Below, piece after piece: positions 10,123 through 17,141 of a stretch of 32,686 nucleotides of DNA. Under the pieces are notes generated by a model. It did not search any database. It was not told the DNA's origin and saw only the letters and a program-made list of their open reading frames with translations. Positions within the stretch are counted from its first letter, which is position 1. Each line of letters begins with the position of its first letter. Source of the DNA: Roseibacillus sp. (lineage in GTDB: Bacteria > Verrucomicrobiota > Verrucomicrobiia > Verrucomicrobiales > Akkermansiaceae); NCBI GenBank assembly GCA_002686085.1, contig NZAC01000055.1:1-32686 (forward strand), in the 5' to 3' direction. A program made the position numbers and the translations under genes.

Positions 10123-11334
10123 TTAGAATACAATTTCGACTGGATCGCCGTCCATCTCCCACTCTGGAAACGGGTCGACAAACTGGTTTTGCCACTTCTG
10201 TTCGTCGGTGGACAATTCGGCCTCGGTAAGCAGACAATGGTCGAGCATCGAGATAAGTCCTTTCCGATCCATGCCACGACCAATAAGCACAATCTCCTGA
10301 CGGCAGTCACCGTTGCCATCCTCCCAGACCCTTTCAATATGACTACGGTCCTCGGGCCAGTGGTCGCGGGGGACGGCAGCCCAGAAATACCCCGCACATT
10401 GGTGCCTCGCGACAGCACCGGCTTGCGACCAGAATCCGGCAGTCTTCAGACGGGTTGCCAGCCAGAACACTCCTTTCGATCGAATGACACCGGGCCATTC
10501 GCGCTTCAGGCAGTCATAGAACCGCTGCGGATGAAAAGGGATCCGCCGCTCGTAAATAAAGTTACTGATCCCGTATTCCTCGGTCTCGGGTGTATGCTCG
10601 ACAAGTGAATCGAGCCAACCCTGATGCTTTGAAGCACGCTCAGGATCATACCGTCCTGTGCCCAGCACGGCATCAAGAGGCACATCAGAATTCACGGAAT
10701 CGTGGATTACGGCCTGAGGATTGAGCGCTCGGATCATCCCATGAACTTTGTGACGTTCTTTCGGCGAGATGAGGTCGACCTTGTTGACAAGCACCACATC
10801 AGAAAAATCGATTTGGTCAGAAAGCAGGTCCACGATCGTACGCTCATCTTCTTCCCCAACCGCCTGCCCCCGATCCGCGAGCCGCTCGGTTGTCGAGTAA
10901 TCGCGGAGGAAGTTGGGCGCATCCACCACCGTCACCATCGTGTCAATCTCAGCAATATCCCCGAGCGACGCGCCATTCTCATCCTCAAAGGTGAAGGTTT
11001 CGGCGACTGGCATAGGTTCCGAAACACCTGTTGATTCTATGACGAGGTGATCAAAACGCCCTTCCCGAGCCAGCTTCCCAACCTCTTGAAGAAGATCCTC
11101 TCGCAGCGTGCAGCAGATACAGCCGTTGGACATCTCGACCATTTTTTCTTCGGTGTGGGAAAGCGCAGCATCGCCATTGCGAACGAGATCGGCGTCGACG
11201 TTCACCTCGGACATGTCGTTAACAATCACCGCCACCTTGCGGCCGTCGCGGTTGCGCAAGATGTGATTGAGGAGCGTTGTTTTACCTGCGCCGAGAAACC
11301 CGGAAAGGACGGTAACAGGGAGCTTACTTTTCAT
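10123..11334 (-). CDS. COG0523/CobW-type G3E GTPase, canonical metal site
   Basis: 403 residues from the ATG at 11334; upstream in-frame starts fall inside the preceding gene. The P-loop GFLGAGKTT is at 12-20, the NDMSEVNVD switch region at 39-47, the metal-binding CICC at 72-75, ESTG follows in the Walker B region, and NKVD provides guanine specificity. The C-terminal CobW_C domain includes HPQRFYDCL and [12 protein letters not shown]0523 GTPases insert or buffer metals such as zinc; NDMSEVN-type members are often tied to zinc scarcity, but the metal cannot be read from sequence alone. It is the last gene of the seven-gene cluster, 13 bases after a divergent paralogue that lacks CICC. Confidence 0.93.
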
Positions 11335-11347
11335 CTGTTCAGGGAGG

Positions 11348-12541
11348 CTAGTCAATCTGGCGAAGGGTTTGAGGCCAAGGGTCTGGGAAGGTTTCGCCGC
11401 GTTCCCACGCGGCAATCTCGTCATCTGTACACAGCGCCGAACGGAGAGCTTGAGCAAACGTGTTACAAGCATCCGGAAGACCAATAAGAGTAAGTTCGTT
11501 GTGGCGATCCCCGAAAACCGGGTGGGCAGATTCGAGGCGACTCTTGAGCAGTTCGATCTCTTCAGGAAGTAGTCTGCCGTCTACATTGCGCACGATTTCA
11601 GCACGCCAATACCCGGTGAGCTCAAGAGCTATCTGACTCCCGGATTGTTGCCAAAGAAGGACATGCGCCGGCCTCGAGGCGAGCCAGAGGTAGCCTTTAG
11701 TACGATACAGACCCGTGCTGAGCTTGTTGCTGACGGCCTCATAGAGGCGCTCCGGATGAAAAGGCCGCGGGTCGCGGATGACGGTAGCTTCAACCTCAGA
11801 GGCGGTGGCATTACTGTCGGCAAGACCAAGCTGGTCGGCCCGGCTCTTAAGGGCTGCAAGGTTTGGGGCAGGAGTCGCCTCAAACTGAGGCAAAAGCAGA
11901 CCGGCTTGCGCGGAAAGTCCGACGGTGGCATCGGGCTGAAGGGCGCGTAGGATGCGCACCTGAGCGTCAGCAACGGACTGCGGAATGGTGTCGACCTTGG
12001 TAAGGATAATAATGCTCGCAAAGGCAATTTGTTCGGCGAGCACGTGTGCTGCCTGAAGAAGAGCGGGATCGCTCCCCACGGAGGCCTCACCAGTGAGGAC
12101 CCGACCATCAGAAAAATCGCGGTGGAGGTTGAGGGCGTCGACAGTAACAATGAAATGCCTGAGGAAGAAACGAGAGTCTTGGGTGAGGGCCGAAATCAGT
12201 GGCCAAGGCCGGGCAGCTCCAGTGCTTTCGCAGAGCACCTGCGGCGGGGGGGGATCGAGCAGGGCAATCTGTCCAAGGATACGAGCAAGAGATGGCTTGA
12301 GCTGTTCCCGGGCATGAACCCCGTGGAGAGCGGCAACACGATCGCGCAGTTCACCGGGAGCCGTGTCAGCACCCTCGTCGGAGAGTAGCTCAGCATCAAT
12401 CCCAAGCTCGCTAAGGTCATGCACTACAAGGGCGGCCTCTCGGAGGGCCTCTTCCCGCCTCCAGCGCCGGAGCAGCGTGGTTTTTCCCGAACCTAAAAAT
12501 CCAGAGAGAACTGTGACTGGTATTCTTGAATCGCCAGTCAT
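11348..12541 (-). CDS. COG0523-like G3E GTPase paralogue lacking the CxCC metal site
   Basis: 397 residues. The start ATG at 12541 overlaps the stop of the preceding gene as ATGA. GTPase elements are kept: P-loop GFLGSGKTT (14-22), HDLSELGID (41-49, the counterpart of NDMSEVNVD), CESTGAARP, and LTKVD as a slightly altered guanine-specificity motif. The CobW_C half is also kept ([21 protein letters not shown]). Where family members carry CxCC, this protein has GVHAR (74-78), so the usual metal-binding thiols are gone. It is clearly homologous to the next gene along most of its length, consistent with tandem duplication followed by divergence. It may be a regulatory or structural partner of the canonical GTPase. 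The coupling with the 150-residue gene upstream suggests the two products interact. Confidence 0.88.
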
Positions 12542-12990
12542 GATTCCTTCGGTGAACAAAAGATCGCTTCCATAAGATCGAGGCATTCCAGCCAGAACTT
12601 GGCGTTCATCGCATCATAGCGGATCGAATCGGGGCCTGTTTTGGTTGTAAATAGAATGTTACTTGGCTCTTCCACCAGCTCATCGAAAAGACGATTGAGG
12701 CAATACCCATGGATCTCATCGCGGGCGCCGCCTACCGGCGTGCCTGGACGGCCTTGGGCGTGGTCACGAAGCGCACCAAGGACAGAGCTCAGGTCGGACG
12801 CGCCGAGCTTAATATTCAGGGGAATGGCAGCCTGCCGATGATCTTCAACAATTGCAGCAAGTCGCTTGACGACCCGTTTTGCCTCTCCCTTCCTATCGGC
12901 GATATCTTGATCGGCTTCGGGAAGAGAAGGAACCTCCGTTCCCATCTCAAACAGGGGACGGACGGTGTCGGGCCGGGTATCACGTTTCAT
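12538..12990 (-). CDS. Unrecognised 150-residue protein of the metal-related cluster
   Basis: I do not recognise a family. The protein is soluble in appearance, without a signal peptide or membrane segment. The N-terminal third is charged (AEAKR-type, helical), with a middle IKLGASDLSSVLGALRD and a C-terminal part containing GYCLNRLFDELVEE and WLECLDLMEAIFC. Three cysteines are scattered and form no clear metal motif. The gene lies 18 bases after the permease gene and overlaps the next GTPase gene by four bases (ATGA), so it is very likely translated together with that GTPase. A partner or adaptor role is possible but is inference only. Confidence 0.75.
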   Translation of the reverse strand: MKRDTRPDTVRPLFEMGTEVPSLPEADQDIADRKGEAKRVVKRLAAIVEDHRQAAIPLNIKLGASDLSSVLGALRDHAQGRPGTPVGGARDEIHGYCLNRLFDELVEEPSNILFTTKTGPDSIRYDAMNAKFWLECLDLMEAIFCSPKES

Positions 12991-13008: not shown

Positions 13009-14001
13009 TCAGGAGCGAGCCTGTTCCGGCAGGGATTGGGGACGGCGTAATCTCGCGCCTTTTCTCAAAAAGAGCTGCGCGAGTGCGATAAGGTGGGGGA
13101 ACTCTACGAGCAACCCGATGATCAGTGCGGCGTGGATCAAGGGCTGATCAGGAATAGCAATCATGGTTAGGCCGAGTATCAAAGGAGCATTTCTTGCAGC
13201 GGTGGTCATCGCTAATAGGACGTGCTGGGGGTGATTCAGGCGAAACCAACGGGCCAGCACTTCACCTAAAGCCCAAGACACGAGGAAAAACAGGGACACC
13301 GCTAACAAGATTTGCACGAGAGCCAGAGGGTTAGCGGTCAGGGTGCTCGTGTGCTGACCGAAGAGACAGAGCGCGACCAGTGCAATCACCCAATAAACGA
13401 GATTGCCACTGAGCGAGGATAACTTTTCAAAGTGATCCTTCCGCAGGAGTCGCGTCAGAACCAGACGCAACACCACGGCGCACAAAAGGGGAAAAAGAAA
13501 CCACTGAGCCAGAGTTGCATTCAGCCCCCCGAGATCTGTGCCACTTTGAGATCCAGTGACCAGACCCAGATAGATGGGAAAGAGAAGGAGTTGACTGATC
13601 AAATTTACCGGCAGCAACACTGCACCCAGCGCCACATCACCCTTCGCCATTCGTGTGAATCCGAGGAACCAATCCGTACATGGAAAGAGAAAGTAGAGCA
13701 GCAGGCCCGCGAATAACGCCGACTCGCGAGGAAAAAAGAGAGAAGCAATTCCCCACCCTGCCAGTGGGATCAATACAAAGTTCGCTACCCACGCCAGACT
13801 GAGAAACGGCAGATGTCGAGTTACCTGGCGAAGCGGATCGAAGCGTACTTCAAAAAAAAGCAGCACCAATAACCCAAAAAGAAGAGCATCTATAAAGGTC
13901 CCTAGAAACTTTCCAGTCTCCGGCAGCAGGCTCCCCAAGACTAATCCGGCCGCTATGGCCATTGGCAAAAGCCATGGCGTGATCTTAGCGGATTGGATCA
14001 T
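13009..14001 (-). CDS. ACR3/bile-acid-symporter superfamily permease (arsenic resistance protein-like)
   Basis: 330 residues, strongly hydrophobic with about nine to ten membrane segments. The start ATG at 14001 overlaps the stop of the flavoprotein gene as ATGA. Segments typical of proteins annotated as arsenic resistance or bile acid:sodium symporter family are visible: FLFPCTDWFLGFTRMAKGD (Cys at 108), LPVNLISQLLLFPIYL, and in the last third TTAARNAPLILG and LLVEFPHLIALAQ. Family members move arsenite, anions or organic acids; the conserved cysteine matches the thiol used by ACR3 proteins. No ArsR or ArsC gene is nearby, and the neighbours are metal-chaperone GTPases, so the cargo here may not be arsenic. 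Confidence 0.85.
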   Translation of the reverse strand: MIQSAKITPWLLPMAIAAGLVLGSLLPETGKFLGTFIDALLFGLLVLLFFEVRFDPLRQVTRHLPFLSLAWVANFVLIPLAGWGIASLFFPRESALFAGLLLYFLFPCTDWFLGFTRMAKGDVALGAVLLPVNLISQLLLFPIYLGLVTGSQSGTDLGGLNATLAQWFLFPLLCAVVLRLVLTRLLRKDHFEKLSSLSGNLVYWVIALVALCLFGQHTSTLTANPLALVQILLAVSLFFLVSWALGEVLARWFRLNHPQHVLLAMTTAARNAPLILGLTMIAIPDQPLIHAALIIGLLVEFPHLIALAQLFLRKGARLRRPQSLPEQARS

Positions 14002-15185
14002 GATGCAAAGGACTCTGGCTCGGGAGCAGAATCCGTGGGGTCGATTGCGCATTCACAGTTCGTGCAGCAATCAAGGTCGGTATTCATAAAGCCCGCCTTG
14101 AGGTAGGGCATGAGCTTTTCGTCCACCTCTGACTTACCAAGACGTGTTGCTATCTCGAGCGCGATCACACCGAAACGAGCCCGGAACTTGTAGATGAAGC
14201 AGAACAGAGCATTCCGGTGAACCAGAGCTGGCCCGGAGTAGAAGAGCCCGGGAACAAGTGTGGATTCGTCAGCCTCTTCACTAAAGACCGGGAGCCCATT
14301 CTTATCATGATCGAAGAGATGCTCAATTGGACCGAGACCAGAGTGAAAACCGTTGGCAAGAATCGGTCGGGTCTTGGATACCGAAGGAATATCATCCTGG
14401 TCACGCAAGGTCCACCAACCTTCGCATTCCTCAATCTGGCGAACATCGGTATTATTGACGAGATCCAGATTCTTCGCCTTGTCCGATGTTCGAAGCAATT
14501 CACGCAGACGGTCGAGGGTACGTGGGCTGAGCGACCGCGACGGATCTGGATGGTCTGACGACCAAGGTTCACCACGTGAAAGGAGGCGCACCGACTTCCC
14601 CAAGGCTACCAAGTTCAGTGCCGCATCCACTCCGCTTTCGTAACCCCCGATGACCGTGAACTGGTCTCCCTCGAGCGCGCTCCAATCCTCCACTTTTGAC
14701 GAGTGCAGCGCATGGTGCGCTCCTGGGAAGGCGTCTTCGCGGGGAGAAAAGAACTGCCCAGCAGCCCAGACCACATAATCAGCAACGATATTTCCCTTGT
14801 TGCTGTCAGCAATGAACTGGCCCTCCTCTTTTCTCAAGGCACTCACGCGGATCCCGGTGCGCACCGGTAGTTGATGATGGGCTGCAACGGCTTGCAGGTA
14901 GTCCGCGTAATGGCGACCCTCCGGGTGCTGGGTCCGCAGAAAATCCGCTGGAGAAGTCTCTGGATCGATCGCATTGAGATCCGTGAGGCCGAAGGAATTG
15001 GAGTGAAACGACGGCGTCAGCAAAGACATCTGACGTGGCCAATTCCGGAAAGCCGCGCCGACTTCTCGCGCATCGATCACCGTCATATCGATAACTCCCG
15101 CCCGTTTAAGAGCCGCGGCCACACCGAGACCCGCCGGTCCCGCCCCGATAATGAGCACCCCTGTATGGAGGATTTCCTCACTCAT
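13998..15185 (-). CDS. CzcO-like FAD/NAD(P)-dependent flavoprotein with cysteine-rich tail
   Basis: 395 residues from the ATG at 15185. The FAD-binding Rossmann motif GAGPAGLG is at 14-21. FRNWPRQMSLLTPSF follows, then a second dinucleotide motif GGYESG (180-185) and ATG-like WAAGQFFSP near 140. The overall layout matches COG2072 (CzcO) putative flavoprotein monooxygenases. The C-terminus carries DLDCCTNCEC, with cysteines at 373, 374, 377 and 379, a possible metal or redox site outside the core fold. It overlaps the permease gene by ATGA, so the two are probably made together. An oxidase acting on a metal-linked small molecule exported by the permease would fit, but the substrate is unknown. 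Confidence 0.87.
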   Translation of the reverse strand: MSEEILHTGVLIIGAGPAGLGVAAALKRAGVIDMTVIDAREVGAAFRNWPRQMSLLTPSFHSNSFGLTDLNAIDPETSPADFLRTQHPEGRHYADYLQAVAAHHQLPVRTGIRVSALRKEEGQFIADSNKGNIVADYVVWAAGQFFSPREDAFPGAHHALHSSKVEDWSALEGDQFTVIGGYESGVDAALNLVALGKSVRLLSRGEPWSSDHPDPSRSLSPRTLDRLRELLRTSDKAKNLDLVNNTDVRQIEECEGWWTLRDQDDIPSVSKTRPILANGFHSGLGPIEHLFDHDKNGLPVFSEEADESTLVPGLFYSGPALVHRNALFCFIYKFRARFGVIALEIATRLGKSEVDEKLMPYLKAGFMNTDLDCCTNCECAIDPTDSAPEPESFAS

Positions 15186-15497: not shown

Positions 15498-16076
15498 TCA
15501 GCGGGCTTCTTCGAAACGTCGTGCGCGAGGTAACTCTGCCGGACAATCACGAAGTCCGATGACCCAACGGGTTGCCGATTCCGGCCGGAGCCAAGCTCGA
15601 GAACGCGGAAGCTTCTTGAAAAGTCGATGACAGCTTTCCCGGTAAGTTCCGCTCGTTAAACGCTGAACCTCCTTTTCGTGCGCAAGCCACCAATCAAGAA
15701 ATGGTCGCGTCAGCCTTTGCAGTAACTCATCGGTCCGGGCTGAGAAGCAATCCCTCGGATACTTTCCGGGCACTGGCGGCGTAGCACCACACCATCGGAC
15801 GCACCGACGAAGTGGCCGGATGAAGAGCATCCCGCCTTCCTCACTCAGCCAACCGGCATGAGAACCGTGCAATTCAATTGCTCCGTTCCTCCAGGGCAGG
15901 CGATAGCAGGAGGTCCCCTTTAACCCGGTCGAAGGGCGTTTCTGAAACCCCGTACGAAGGAAAAGGTTACCCTCCGAGTGCTCAGCATCCTTGCCCCAAA
16001 AATACATCTGCTGGTGTAATCCTGCCGCGAGATCGCGATACAAAGCTGTGAGCGGAGGGCTCTTAGATGGCGGCAT
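15498..16076 (-). CDS. Unrecognised 192-residue protein, first gene of the metal-related cluster
   Basis: The ATG at 16076 is preferred; an upstream in-frame start at 16151 would read through the palindromic operator-like site. The protein is basic, without signal peptide or membrane segments. It contains six cysteines (57, 92, 96, 110, 149, 178), including a CxxxC at 92-96, and several His and Trp residues (HGSHAGW, FLDWWLAHE). I do not recognise a family. As the first gene behind the operator-like palindrome, followed after three bases by the 69-residue gene, it probably opens the transcript that leads to the flavoprotein, permease and GTPases. The cysteines could bind metal, but there is no canonical zinc-finger spacing. 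Confidence 0.72.
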   Translation of the reverse strand: MPPSKSPPLTALYRDLAAGLHQQMYFWGKDAEHSEGNLFLRTGFQKRPSTGLKGTSCYRLPWRNGAIELHGSHAGWLSEEGGMLFIRPLRRCVRWCGATPPVPGKYPRDCFSARTDELLQRLTRPFLDWWLAHEKEVQRLTSGTYRESCHRLFKKLPRSRAWLRPESATRWVIGLRDCPAELPRARRFEEAR

Positions 16077-16105
16077 ACCGGTCTTTATCGCCAACAAATC
16101 TCTAA

Positions 16106-16120
16106 TGCAACTAATTTGCA
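16106..16120. promoter_or_regulatory. Fur-family-like operator palindrome upstream of metal cluster
   Basis: TGCAACTAATTTGCA: arms TGCAA and TTGCA are perfect inverted repeats around five bases, close to a 7-1-7 arrangement typical of Fur/Zur-family operators. An overlapping repeat AACTA...TAGTT spans 16109-16126. The site lies 30-44 bases before the first ATG of the seven-gene cluster. On the minus strand it overlaps a possible -35 (TTGCAT), with GATAAA about 15 bases further. Regulation by a metal-sensing repressor is inference; no regulator gene is present in the window. Confidence 0.45.
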
Positions 16121-16188
16121 CTAGTTGGGAGCTCGCTGAAACTTGGACCACATGACCTGCAATCTCGACAAATCATCTGAACGTTGAT

Positions 16189-16265: not shown

Positions 16266-17141
16266 TTAGAGCGAATAGCGTGCCTTGATCGCGGTGTAGG
16301 TTAGATTCGAGACCTCCCTGATGACGTTTCCGCGGCTGGCGATCCAGGACCCGTAGGACTTGTTACGCGTGCCACTGTCAATGATCCCGATCACTGCGTA
16401 AGGGTAGGACCGCCCATCATTTCCTTTCGCCACCAGAATCCCCATATCGCCACAGCACCGCGCCGTGCTTCCAGTCTTGTTGTAAACGCGGGTTCCTTGG
16501 GGAACACGCTTGGCATTCGTGTAGAGTCGGTCCCTGCCCGGCAAGCCCATCACTCGTAGAATTTCCTTTGAGTGAGGCAGAGTCCCAGACCACAGCGACT
16601 GAAGAAAACGTCCGTAGTCTCCTGCCGAGCAAAGGTTACGATACGTTCGACCTCCCGCCGGAACATACTCAACGAGATGAAGGTGCCTGCACAGCGATGG
16701 GTAATGCCGCTTGAGCAGGGCCGCGGTCGCGACTGGCCCCCCAGTCTGCCTCATCACCCAGTTGGTGGAAGCGTTGTTACTCTTCTGGATCATCAACTCC
16801 ATGTGCCGCCTGCTCGTGGAGCCATAAATGAGCCTACCGGCCCGCACCTGATGAAAAAACGCCAGGGCGAGATAGGGCTTGATCATACTGGCAGCCTGAA
16901 GTTGCTGGTTTTCGTTGATGCTCACCAGTGTCTTACCGGAGGTGAAGTCGTAGACCAGCCAAGCCGTACGCTCATTGGTCTGAAGCGCTCCCTTGCTCCG
17001 CAGCGATTTGACATAACGCTCTACCTCGCCCTCCAATCTACTCTCCGCTGCCTGACCCAATTGGCCGAACGCCAGCCAGCCAAGAGCAAGAGTGAGAAGA
17101 AAAACAGGGCACTTCACCAGGATTGGATAATCTGTTCGCAT
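16266..17141 (-). CDS. Class A beta-lactamase-like serine hydrolase, exported
   Basis: 291 residues with a long signal peptide or membrane anchor (about 10-31). The active-site motifs of the penicillin-recognising fold are present: SMIK (Ser85, Lys88), SNN (121-123) and KTGS (222-225). The omega-loop Glu-x-x-Leu-Asn of true class A beta-lactamases is not evident; the equivalent region reads EYVPAGGRTYRNL. It may therefore be a transpeptidase/carboxypeptidase-like or other hydrolase acting on cell-wall peptides. The gene is monocistronic, with a hairpin terminator behind it and a possible promoter at about 17168-17198. It sits between two copies of a tRNA-end repeat. Confidence 0.85.
   Translation of the reverse strand: MRTDYPILVKCPVFLLTLALGWLAFGQLGQAAESRLEGEVERYVKSLRSKGALQTNERTAWLVYDFTSGKTLVSINENQQLQAASMIKPYLALAFFHQVRAGRLIYGSTSRRHMELMIQKSNNASTNWVMRQTGGPVATAALLKRHYPSLCRHLHLVEYVPAGGRTYRNLCSAGDYGRFLQSLWSGTLPHSKEILRVMGLPGRDRLYTNAKRVPQGTRVYNKTGSTARCCGDMGILVAKGNDGRSYPYAVIGIIDSGTRNKSYGSWIASRGNVIREVSNLTYTAIKARYSL

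Follow-up and report, generated by a model that had tools for sequence, protein, structure and literature searches.

The CobW/COG0523 proteins are GTPases in which a CxCC motif is stated for all members in the passages of the two accounts that we draw on (PMC2770081; PMC7895991), and this motif has been regarded both as the hallmark of COG0523 and as the basis on which GTP binding creates the metal site. In CobW, according to sections of one of these studies, a tight metal site is formed with Mg and GTP, its thiols probably being provided by CxCC, and [ST]KxD is reported there for some COG0523 proteins (PMC7895991). The mycobacterial Mrf protein Rv0106 is described, in the relevant passages of Haas et al. 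2009, as having a CXSC sequence and no GTPase motifs (PMC2770081). An excerpt from another paper describes Mrf as zinc-regulated and its zinc-bound form as degraded (PMC13418864). The passages of Haas et al. also name PyrC, HemB2, and DksA as C-minus paralogues in Zur regulons and describe a Zur-regulated gene cluster on the Klebsiella plasmid pLVPK; in these passages, the account of the cluster makes no mention of a COG0523 copy without CxCC (PMC2770081). For the PVC superphylum, a palindrome resembling a zinc-regulator site has been reported in Luteolibacter, in a study of the zinc protein ZepA (PMC10957091). In the titles, abstract openings, and passages covered by a literature search, no COG0523 clade that lacks CxCC but retains its GTPase motifs is described.

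The DNA analyzed here, referred to as the window, is a contig of 32,686 nucleotides taken whole from a host genome of 3.95 Mb in 73 contigs, assigned to Verrucomicrobiota by its gene content. It encodes a G3E/COG0523-like GTPase of 397 amino acids with a P-loop, ESTG, TKVD, and a CobW_C domain (11348-12541, minus strand). The gene is read from 12541 down to 11348, and the plus strand of the same stretch contains stops. The original prediction held that this protein had lost the CxCC segment of the neighboring GTPase while keeping the P-loop, ESTG, and TKVD, and both halves of this claim are borne out. In a BLASTP alignment with the neighbor (27% identity over 403 columns, 1e-36), the 10 residues opposite its CxCC segment (residues 74-83; 12293-12322, minus strand) include no cysteine, and the three GTPase motifs are present in the translation and the alignment. 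The MAFFT register is shifted by one residue from that of BLASTP, placing H76 opposite the first cysteine, and there is no nearby cysteine in either.

Both Pfam domains of the CobW/COG0523 family are recognized above their curated cut-offs, cobW with an E value of 5e-23 (82 bits; cut-off 20.7) and CobW_C with 2.5e-16 (59.7 bits; cut-off 22), and the protein carries GxxGxGKT, ExxG, and [NST]KxD. It falls far below the NCBIfam equivalog for ZigA (NF038288; 164.5 bits, cut-off 600) and lower still on the MRF model (NF047431), which matches residues 132-391 with an E value of 1.3e-25 and 90.2 bits against a cut-off of 375. An AlphaFold2 model built from 63 sequences (mean pLDDT 81, pTM 0.81) comprises a G domain followed by a C-terminal domain; its pLDDT falls below 50 at residues 57-66 and is near 56 in the motif stretch, which leaves the replaced loop poorly defined. 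The best Foldseek matches were YjiA entries (E value of 7e-15 over 400 columns but with an rmsd of 20), and the structure-library matches were mostly G3E and SRP-type GTPases. Structural realignment put Shulin, a member of the ciliate dynein complex, at the top (Z 18 over 308 residues spanning both domains, 11% identity), followed by UreG, HypB, and YjiA, the last with a Z of 14.4 over 180 residues.

A GTPase clade without the CxCC motif

Relatives were searched for in 387 genomes of the phylum, where the close ones share 65-67% identity and the more distant ones 35-39%. A profile built from seven sequences was then run on 288 genomes of the order, giving 433-652 bits for full-length relatives, 297-384 bits for three fragments, and at most 247 bits for everything else. 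The gene is patchily distributed, being carried by 39 of these 288 genomes; two more carriers from elsewhere in the phylum bring the collection to 42 loci in 41 genomes. Three same-genus genomes searched at an E value of 1e-40 had neither the CxCC-less gene nor ZigA. Three clade fragments (L193, L194, and L195) miss the CxCC site and are excluded from the 39 sequences discussed below. In one of these loci, a CxCC-bearing N-terminal piece resembling ZigA lies directly 5′ of a clade-type C-terminal piece (L195:9336-10156), possibly as a hybrid or a broken gene.

The motif by which membership of the CobW/COG0523 family is judged is absent from the window protein and from each of the 39 family members whose sequence spans the site, while the ZigA-range proteins from the clade loci all have CICC (19/19). 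A local error had been left open by the original prediction, to be indicated by close homologues with an intact motif; none was found among the 39, and this explanation is dismissed. The proposed family alignment and phylogeny gave the same answer, since the loss is common to the whole clade, which forms a single branch with a support of 100. In 14 members, including the window protein, ALH[G/D]xHA occupies the place of CxCC (the H subclade), and in the 25 members of the larger subclade G[ST]xS does. Threonine replaces the asparagine of NKxD in 39/39 sequences, and nine members, all of the larger group, have TKxE instead of TKxD. The clade sequences, 39 of 39, have a cysteine at position 371 (C371), which the 19 aligned ZigA neighbors uniformly lack. 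In a wider genome scan using generic P-loop and KG patterns, the Mrf-like protein of L092 was the only one without C.CC among the best 80 loci.

In a maximum-likelihood tree (quick mode; 38 of 76 background rows), the 39 sequences form one branch with an SH-aLRT support of 100 and a stem of 1.73 changes per site. The H subclade had first been picked by its ALH[G/D]xHA pattern, and the tree recovered exactly those 14 sequences with a support of 100; the 25 members of the larger group received 83. When the motif and NKxD columns were removed, the 39 still formed one branch (support 100). This tree and the one to which E. coli proteins were added used 26 of the 76 background rows, and the latter took 11 of the 19 ZigA neighbors; a further set, A2, held 61 of the 76 background rows and the two window proteins. 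The ZigA neighbors group with CxCC proteins of other bacteria to the exclusion of the clade (96 in the tree without the motif columns; 100/97 in the E. coli tree). The Mrf-like protein of L092 falls outside the clade, although its own branch is so long (4.44) that its position says little. As read from these sequences, the loss of CxCC is old and clade-wide, and the clade is deep. The tandem arrangement had suggested subfunctionalization to the original prediction; as a recent event, this is at odds with the depth of the clade and with the grouping of the ZigA neighbors. Pairwise comparisons of the coding sequences support purifying selection on the clade, with a dN/dS of 0.04-0.16 in eight of nine pairs, two of these with a dS near 2; the ninth pair, window versus L034, was saturated. 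Both a local sequencing error and decay are thus dismissed by the clade-wide loss together with the dN/dS values.

Zinc-starvation genes and the upstream palindrome

The GTPase gene lies in an operon whose genes run in one direction. The first gene (15498-16076, minus strand, ATG at 16076) encodes a conserved protein without a Pfam match and is followed by small open reading frames; a Pyr_redox_3 FAD oxidoreductase (13998-15185, minus strand); an SBF/ACR3-like permease, here inside a zinc operon (13009-14001, minus strand); a 150-amino-acid protein without a Pfam match (12538-12990, minus strand); the CxCC-less GTPase; and ZigA. ATGA overlaps are found at 14001-13998 and at 12541-12538, the latter joining the 150-amino-acid protein to the GTPase. 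The intact neighbor has CICC and exceeds the ZigA cut-off (10123-11334, minus strand; 612.9 bits against 600), and its ATG at 11334 is 13 bp downstream of the CxCC-less gene. Just upstream of the operon, at 16266-17141, the window also encodes a beta-lactamase-fold protein (Beta-lactamase2).

The neighborhoods of the 42 loci, each at most 19.5 kb long (32.7 kb for the window), were compared with 20 control stretches from 12 carrier genomes, using seven families hand-picked from the recurrent ones; families antisense to the GTPase or its neighbors, an ABC ATPase (seven loci), and sulfatases (six) were left out of this comparison. The family of the first gene occurred in 16 of the 42 clade loci, that of the 150-amino-acid protein in 12, the FAD oxidoreductase and a dual-specificity-type phosphatase in 10 each, HisI and a cysteine-poor FmdB-like protein in 9 each, and a FeoB-like Gate protein in 7; each was found in 0/20 controls. 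At least one of the seven was present in 30/42 clade loci (0/20 controls) and none in the remaining 12/42. Individual loci also carry other zinc-related genes: the L037 cluster begins with type B L31, scoring above its cut-off, and L035 encodes a beta-carbonic anhydrase and three CxCC COG0523 proteins. Type B L31 was found in 1 of the 42 loci with one BLAST query. The FmdB-like protein (L164:8757-8975 and eight other loci) is small, seems to be without the ribbon cysteines, and often has a cysteine-rich tail. Its name (16.6 bits, cut-off 31.3), like MerC-like, UreG-like, and HisI-like on contig C11, was given by eye, with no model above its cut-off. The FeoB-like protein combines a G domain with Gate domains and is 47% identical between L037:11791-13476 and L267:2125-3774, the latter in E. 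coli; found near zinc genes, it is possibly a zinc rather than an iron transporter.

The two families without a Pfam match also occur where the CxCC-less gene is missing, and several of these genomes have them within 2 kb of a ZigA-range gene, which indicates that they belong to the zinc set and not to the CxCC-less GTPase alone. Ignoring relatedness, one occurs in 29/39 carriers compared to 55/249 other genomes and the other in 22/39 compared to 27/249.

The window operon is headed by GTGCAAATTAGTTGCAT, a Zur-box-like palindrome at 16105-16121, 28 bp before the first gene. A de novo count of spaced dyads upstream of the clade genes gave TGCAA-N5-TTGCA as the top pattern, present at 17 loci as compared to 4 in random stretches of the same loci. 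In five random halvings, this dyad was the best in the first half each time and occurred in 7-12 of the 21 loci of the other half. Sites with up to two mismatches to the consensus ATGCAATNNNATTGCAT were found in 25/42 clade loci versus 1/20 controls, and with up to three in 32/42 versus 5/20; the consensus was learned from the same loci, making this enrichment partly circular, and the checks on it are the held-out halves, the host genome beyond the window, and the E. coli locus L267. When the last Met before the P-loop is taken as the gene start, 16 of 39 genes, all of the larger group, have a box with up to three mismatches no more than 50 bp from it, where about 0.03 would be expected from the control density. 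None of the 14 H-subclade genes, including that of the window, has such a box in the 260 bp upstream. Seven H loci (L034, L161, L162, L164, L165, L167, and L169) have no such site in the whole fetched stretch, and L036 and L170 have three-mismatch sites only; L161, L164, and L165 have a variant palindrome in common.

In the host genome, RTGCAAN5TTGCAY occurs at two places and the reversed control pattern at none. The first is the palindrome heading the window operon, and the second precedes a cluster of MerC-like, HisI-like, and COG0523 (CACC) genes. With one mismatch allowed, the pattern is found at seven places compared to one for the reversed control. The additional sites include one that falls within the first gene of the window operon, two on contig C12 with adjacent genes that have no evident zinc role, and two placed 51 bp apart before a gene on contig C24. 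The protein behind these paired sites is a histidine-rich secreted protein of the choice-of-anchor-M/PEP-CTERM type (L260:7473-8279) and a candidate zinc scavenger. Three Fur-family genes are present in the host genome, one of which was chosen as the candidate Zur because four loci have a relative of it within 1 kb of the clade gene; the models used do not assign it this name. Collectively, the neighborhoods and the palindrome suggest that the CxCC-less clade very probably has a role in zinc starvation.

Family members in E. coli and Klebsiella

When plasmids were searched by tblastn, matches in E. coli scored 193-215 bits as compared to 124-133 bits for the rows named ZigA among the matches listed. 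Four E. coli proteins, from two plasmids and two chromosomes, are all without CxCC and have DSISS in its place; they join the clade when added to the tree (100/100). With the clade profile, the three that were tested scored 355-367 bits versus 236 bits for the ZigA of locus L267. With the E. coli plasmid protein as the query, 1263 plasmid records matched at 1e-60 or better, 663 of them from Klebsiella and 562 from Escherichia, and at least 80% of the gene was covered by blastn in 884 of 5426 complete E. coli genomes. The blastn records with a match numbered 1212, 559 of which were at 60-80% identity, and the motif was read in four sequences. A family member is also found on NC_005249.1 of K. 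pneumoniae CG43, which we take to be plasmid pLVPK. The annotations given to such genes are "GTP-binding protein," "CobW family GTP-binding protein," and in places "cobalamin biosynthesis protein CobW," so that carrying over the function of ZigA or CobW would be an error on the central point.

In the chromosomal island L267, genes for Fur, hisI (with an annotated internal stop), zigA, the FeoB-like protein, the FAD oxidoreductase, cysS, a second Fur, the CxCC-less GTPase, dksA, and folE2 are followed by those for an LbetaH protein, a tunnelling-fold protein, a metal ABC transporter (one gene incomplete), and thrS. The GTPase gene and that of the second Fur are divergent, and the 97 bp between them contain TTGCAACTTGATTGCAT, which differs from the consensus at two positions. 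The oxidoreductase and the FeoB-like protein of this island are related, at 35-47%, to their counterparts in the Verrucomicrobiota loci. A cysteine-rich tail of the oxidoreductase is seen in the zinc clusters of the two phyla, as CCTNCEC in the window and CCADEDCAC in E. coli, and also in L037. The second Fur of L267 resembles the candidate Zur weakly (33% over 78 residues) and is equally similar to another Fur of the window genome, for which reason it does not identify the repressor. On the chromosome of L266, the GTPase is preceded by a TonB receptor and a DUF4198 gene, and the site before the receptor has four mismatches to the E. coli Zur consensus, with shuffles reaching seven. The ColV-type plasmid stretch L263 contains neither a box-like nor an E. 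coli Zur-type site. Its GTPase (L263:5986-7179) has TRND in place of the TKx[D/E] of the clade; together with TKxE in 9 of the 39 clade members, this substitution suggests that guanine binding may be altered in some.

Possible functions and related systems

We favor, at a probability of about 60%, the reading that the window protein is a C-minus COG0523 paralogue of zinc starvation whose GTP cycle would no longer use the metal of CxCC. With the cysteines gone, a metal site of the CobW type cannot form in the same way. A Zur-type repressor would switch the operon on at zinc scarcity, and the CxCC-less GTPase would bind and hydrolyze GTP and, like ZigA, use its C-terminal domain to dock on clients. 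Its GTP cycle would not wait for a zinc ion in the CxCC site, and the protein could thus serve as a metal-free adaptor for clients or hold them, with the FAD oxidoreductase and the FeoB-like protein as possible partners in their place. This role would arise in conditions that leave ZigA without its metal or in which ZigA would sequester zinc, and the CxCC-less GTPase would then replace or assist ZigA on its clients without the zinc cost, in parallel to the cysteine-poor DksA, the product of the adjacent gene in the E. coli island. The adaptor step is the more tentative part of this reading, and that step we consider less likely than not.

Two other readings would keep a metal in the picture. 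The protein could be a metallochaperone with other ligands, in which the HxxH of the H subclade (H73 and H76) carries a harder metal, for instance Fe(II) or Mn(II), or zinc at lower affinity; the well-supported ALH[G/D]xHA group and the conservation of C371 across the clade fit such a role. However, the G[ST]xS of the larger subclade offers no conserved metal ligand at this place, the four E. coli members have DSISS there, and the single C371, distant in sequence, makes no site by itself, so that this reading is unlikely. The protein could instead pair with metal-loaded ZigA as a regulatory or heterodimer subunit and tune it, as the original prediction proposed, along with a check of whether the loss always occurs beside a CxCC copy. 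Disregarding relatedness, ZigA-range proteins are indeed found in 34/39 carrier genomes of the order compared to 52/249 others (the range being set by score, with G545, G520, and G394 counted as having one, two of them from fragments), and one lies within the same fetched stretch in 19/42 loci. Direct adjacency, as in the window, is confined to 11/42 loci and same-strand tandems to 6/42, and orientation and order vary. Furthermore, five of the 39 carriers have no ZigA-range protein. The genomes concerned are drafts in four cases, but the fifth, G254, is a single contig at 98% completeness with no CxCC copy, and its one other G3E protein reads as UreG. Obligate pairing with ZigA is therefore rejected as a rule, and the invariable association fails with it. 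Common zinc regulation accounts equally well for the co-occurrence, and we consider a ZigA subunit slightly less probable than the alternative ligands.

In a further reading, the protein would be an Mrf-like factor that at zinc starvation brings a hibernation factor to ribosomes with C-minus proteins, in the manner of the mycobacterial COG0523-like Mrf. The MRF model does match the C-terminal two thirds of the protein, type B L31 begins the L037 cluster, and Mrf is zinc-regulated, with degradation of its zinc-bound form (PMC13418864). On the other hand, the ZigA model scores higher, Mrf has lost the Walker A motif that the clade kept, L31B is found at that one locus, and the Mrf-like L092 is not grouped with the clade, for what its long branch allows. 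An identity with Mrf is not supported, and a ribosomal role of this kind seems improbable, a shade more so than the ZigA subunit. A decaying copy without function, to which the lost motif and the patchy distribution might point, is hardly credible given the low dN/dS, the motifs kept across two phyla, and the lack of internal stop codons in the clade places listed. To return to the C-minus paralogue, a broader version of it would make the metal-free COG0523 GTPase a standing part of a mobile zinc-starvation module found in Verrucomicrobiota and on E. coli and Klebsiella islands and plasmids, comprising ZigA, the cysteine-tailed FAD oxidoreductase, the FeoB-like permease, the cysteine-less GTPase, and its own Fur-type repressor, in which the GTPase gates the release or import of zinc by GTP hydrolysis without carrying zinc. 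This extension is doubtful; if it were true, the COG0523 GTPase cycle would be a switch separable from metal delivery. A selected and conserved CxCC-less clade provides a natural mutant for asking what the GTPase does apart from metal.

Compared to ZigA, ZagA, and YciC (NF038288), the clade has the same two-domain fold, P-loop, ExxG, [NT]KxD, CobW_C domain, and zinc-starvation context, but it is without CxCC, has TKx[D/E] in place of NKxD, and forms a separate branch. Mrf/Rv0106 (NF047431) is similar in being COG0523-like, in its zinc-starvation regulon, a putative one in the case of the clade, and in its altered cysteine motif; in contrast to Mrf, as far as the published passages describe it, the clade keeps the GTPase motifs and loses all three cysteines. 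The resemblance to the Zur-regulated cluster of pLVPK lies in the family member on NC_005249.1. With PyrC, HemB2, DksA, and L31B, the last of which is also a C-minus paralogue of Zur regulons, the window protein has in common that it is a paralogue of a zinc protein with the ligands gone, encoded among zinc-starvation genes. These four are paralogues of zinc users, whereas here the zinc-handling GTPase itself would be the C-minus case.
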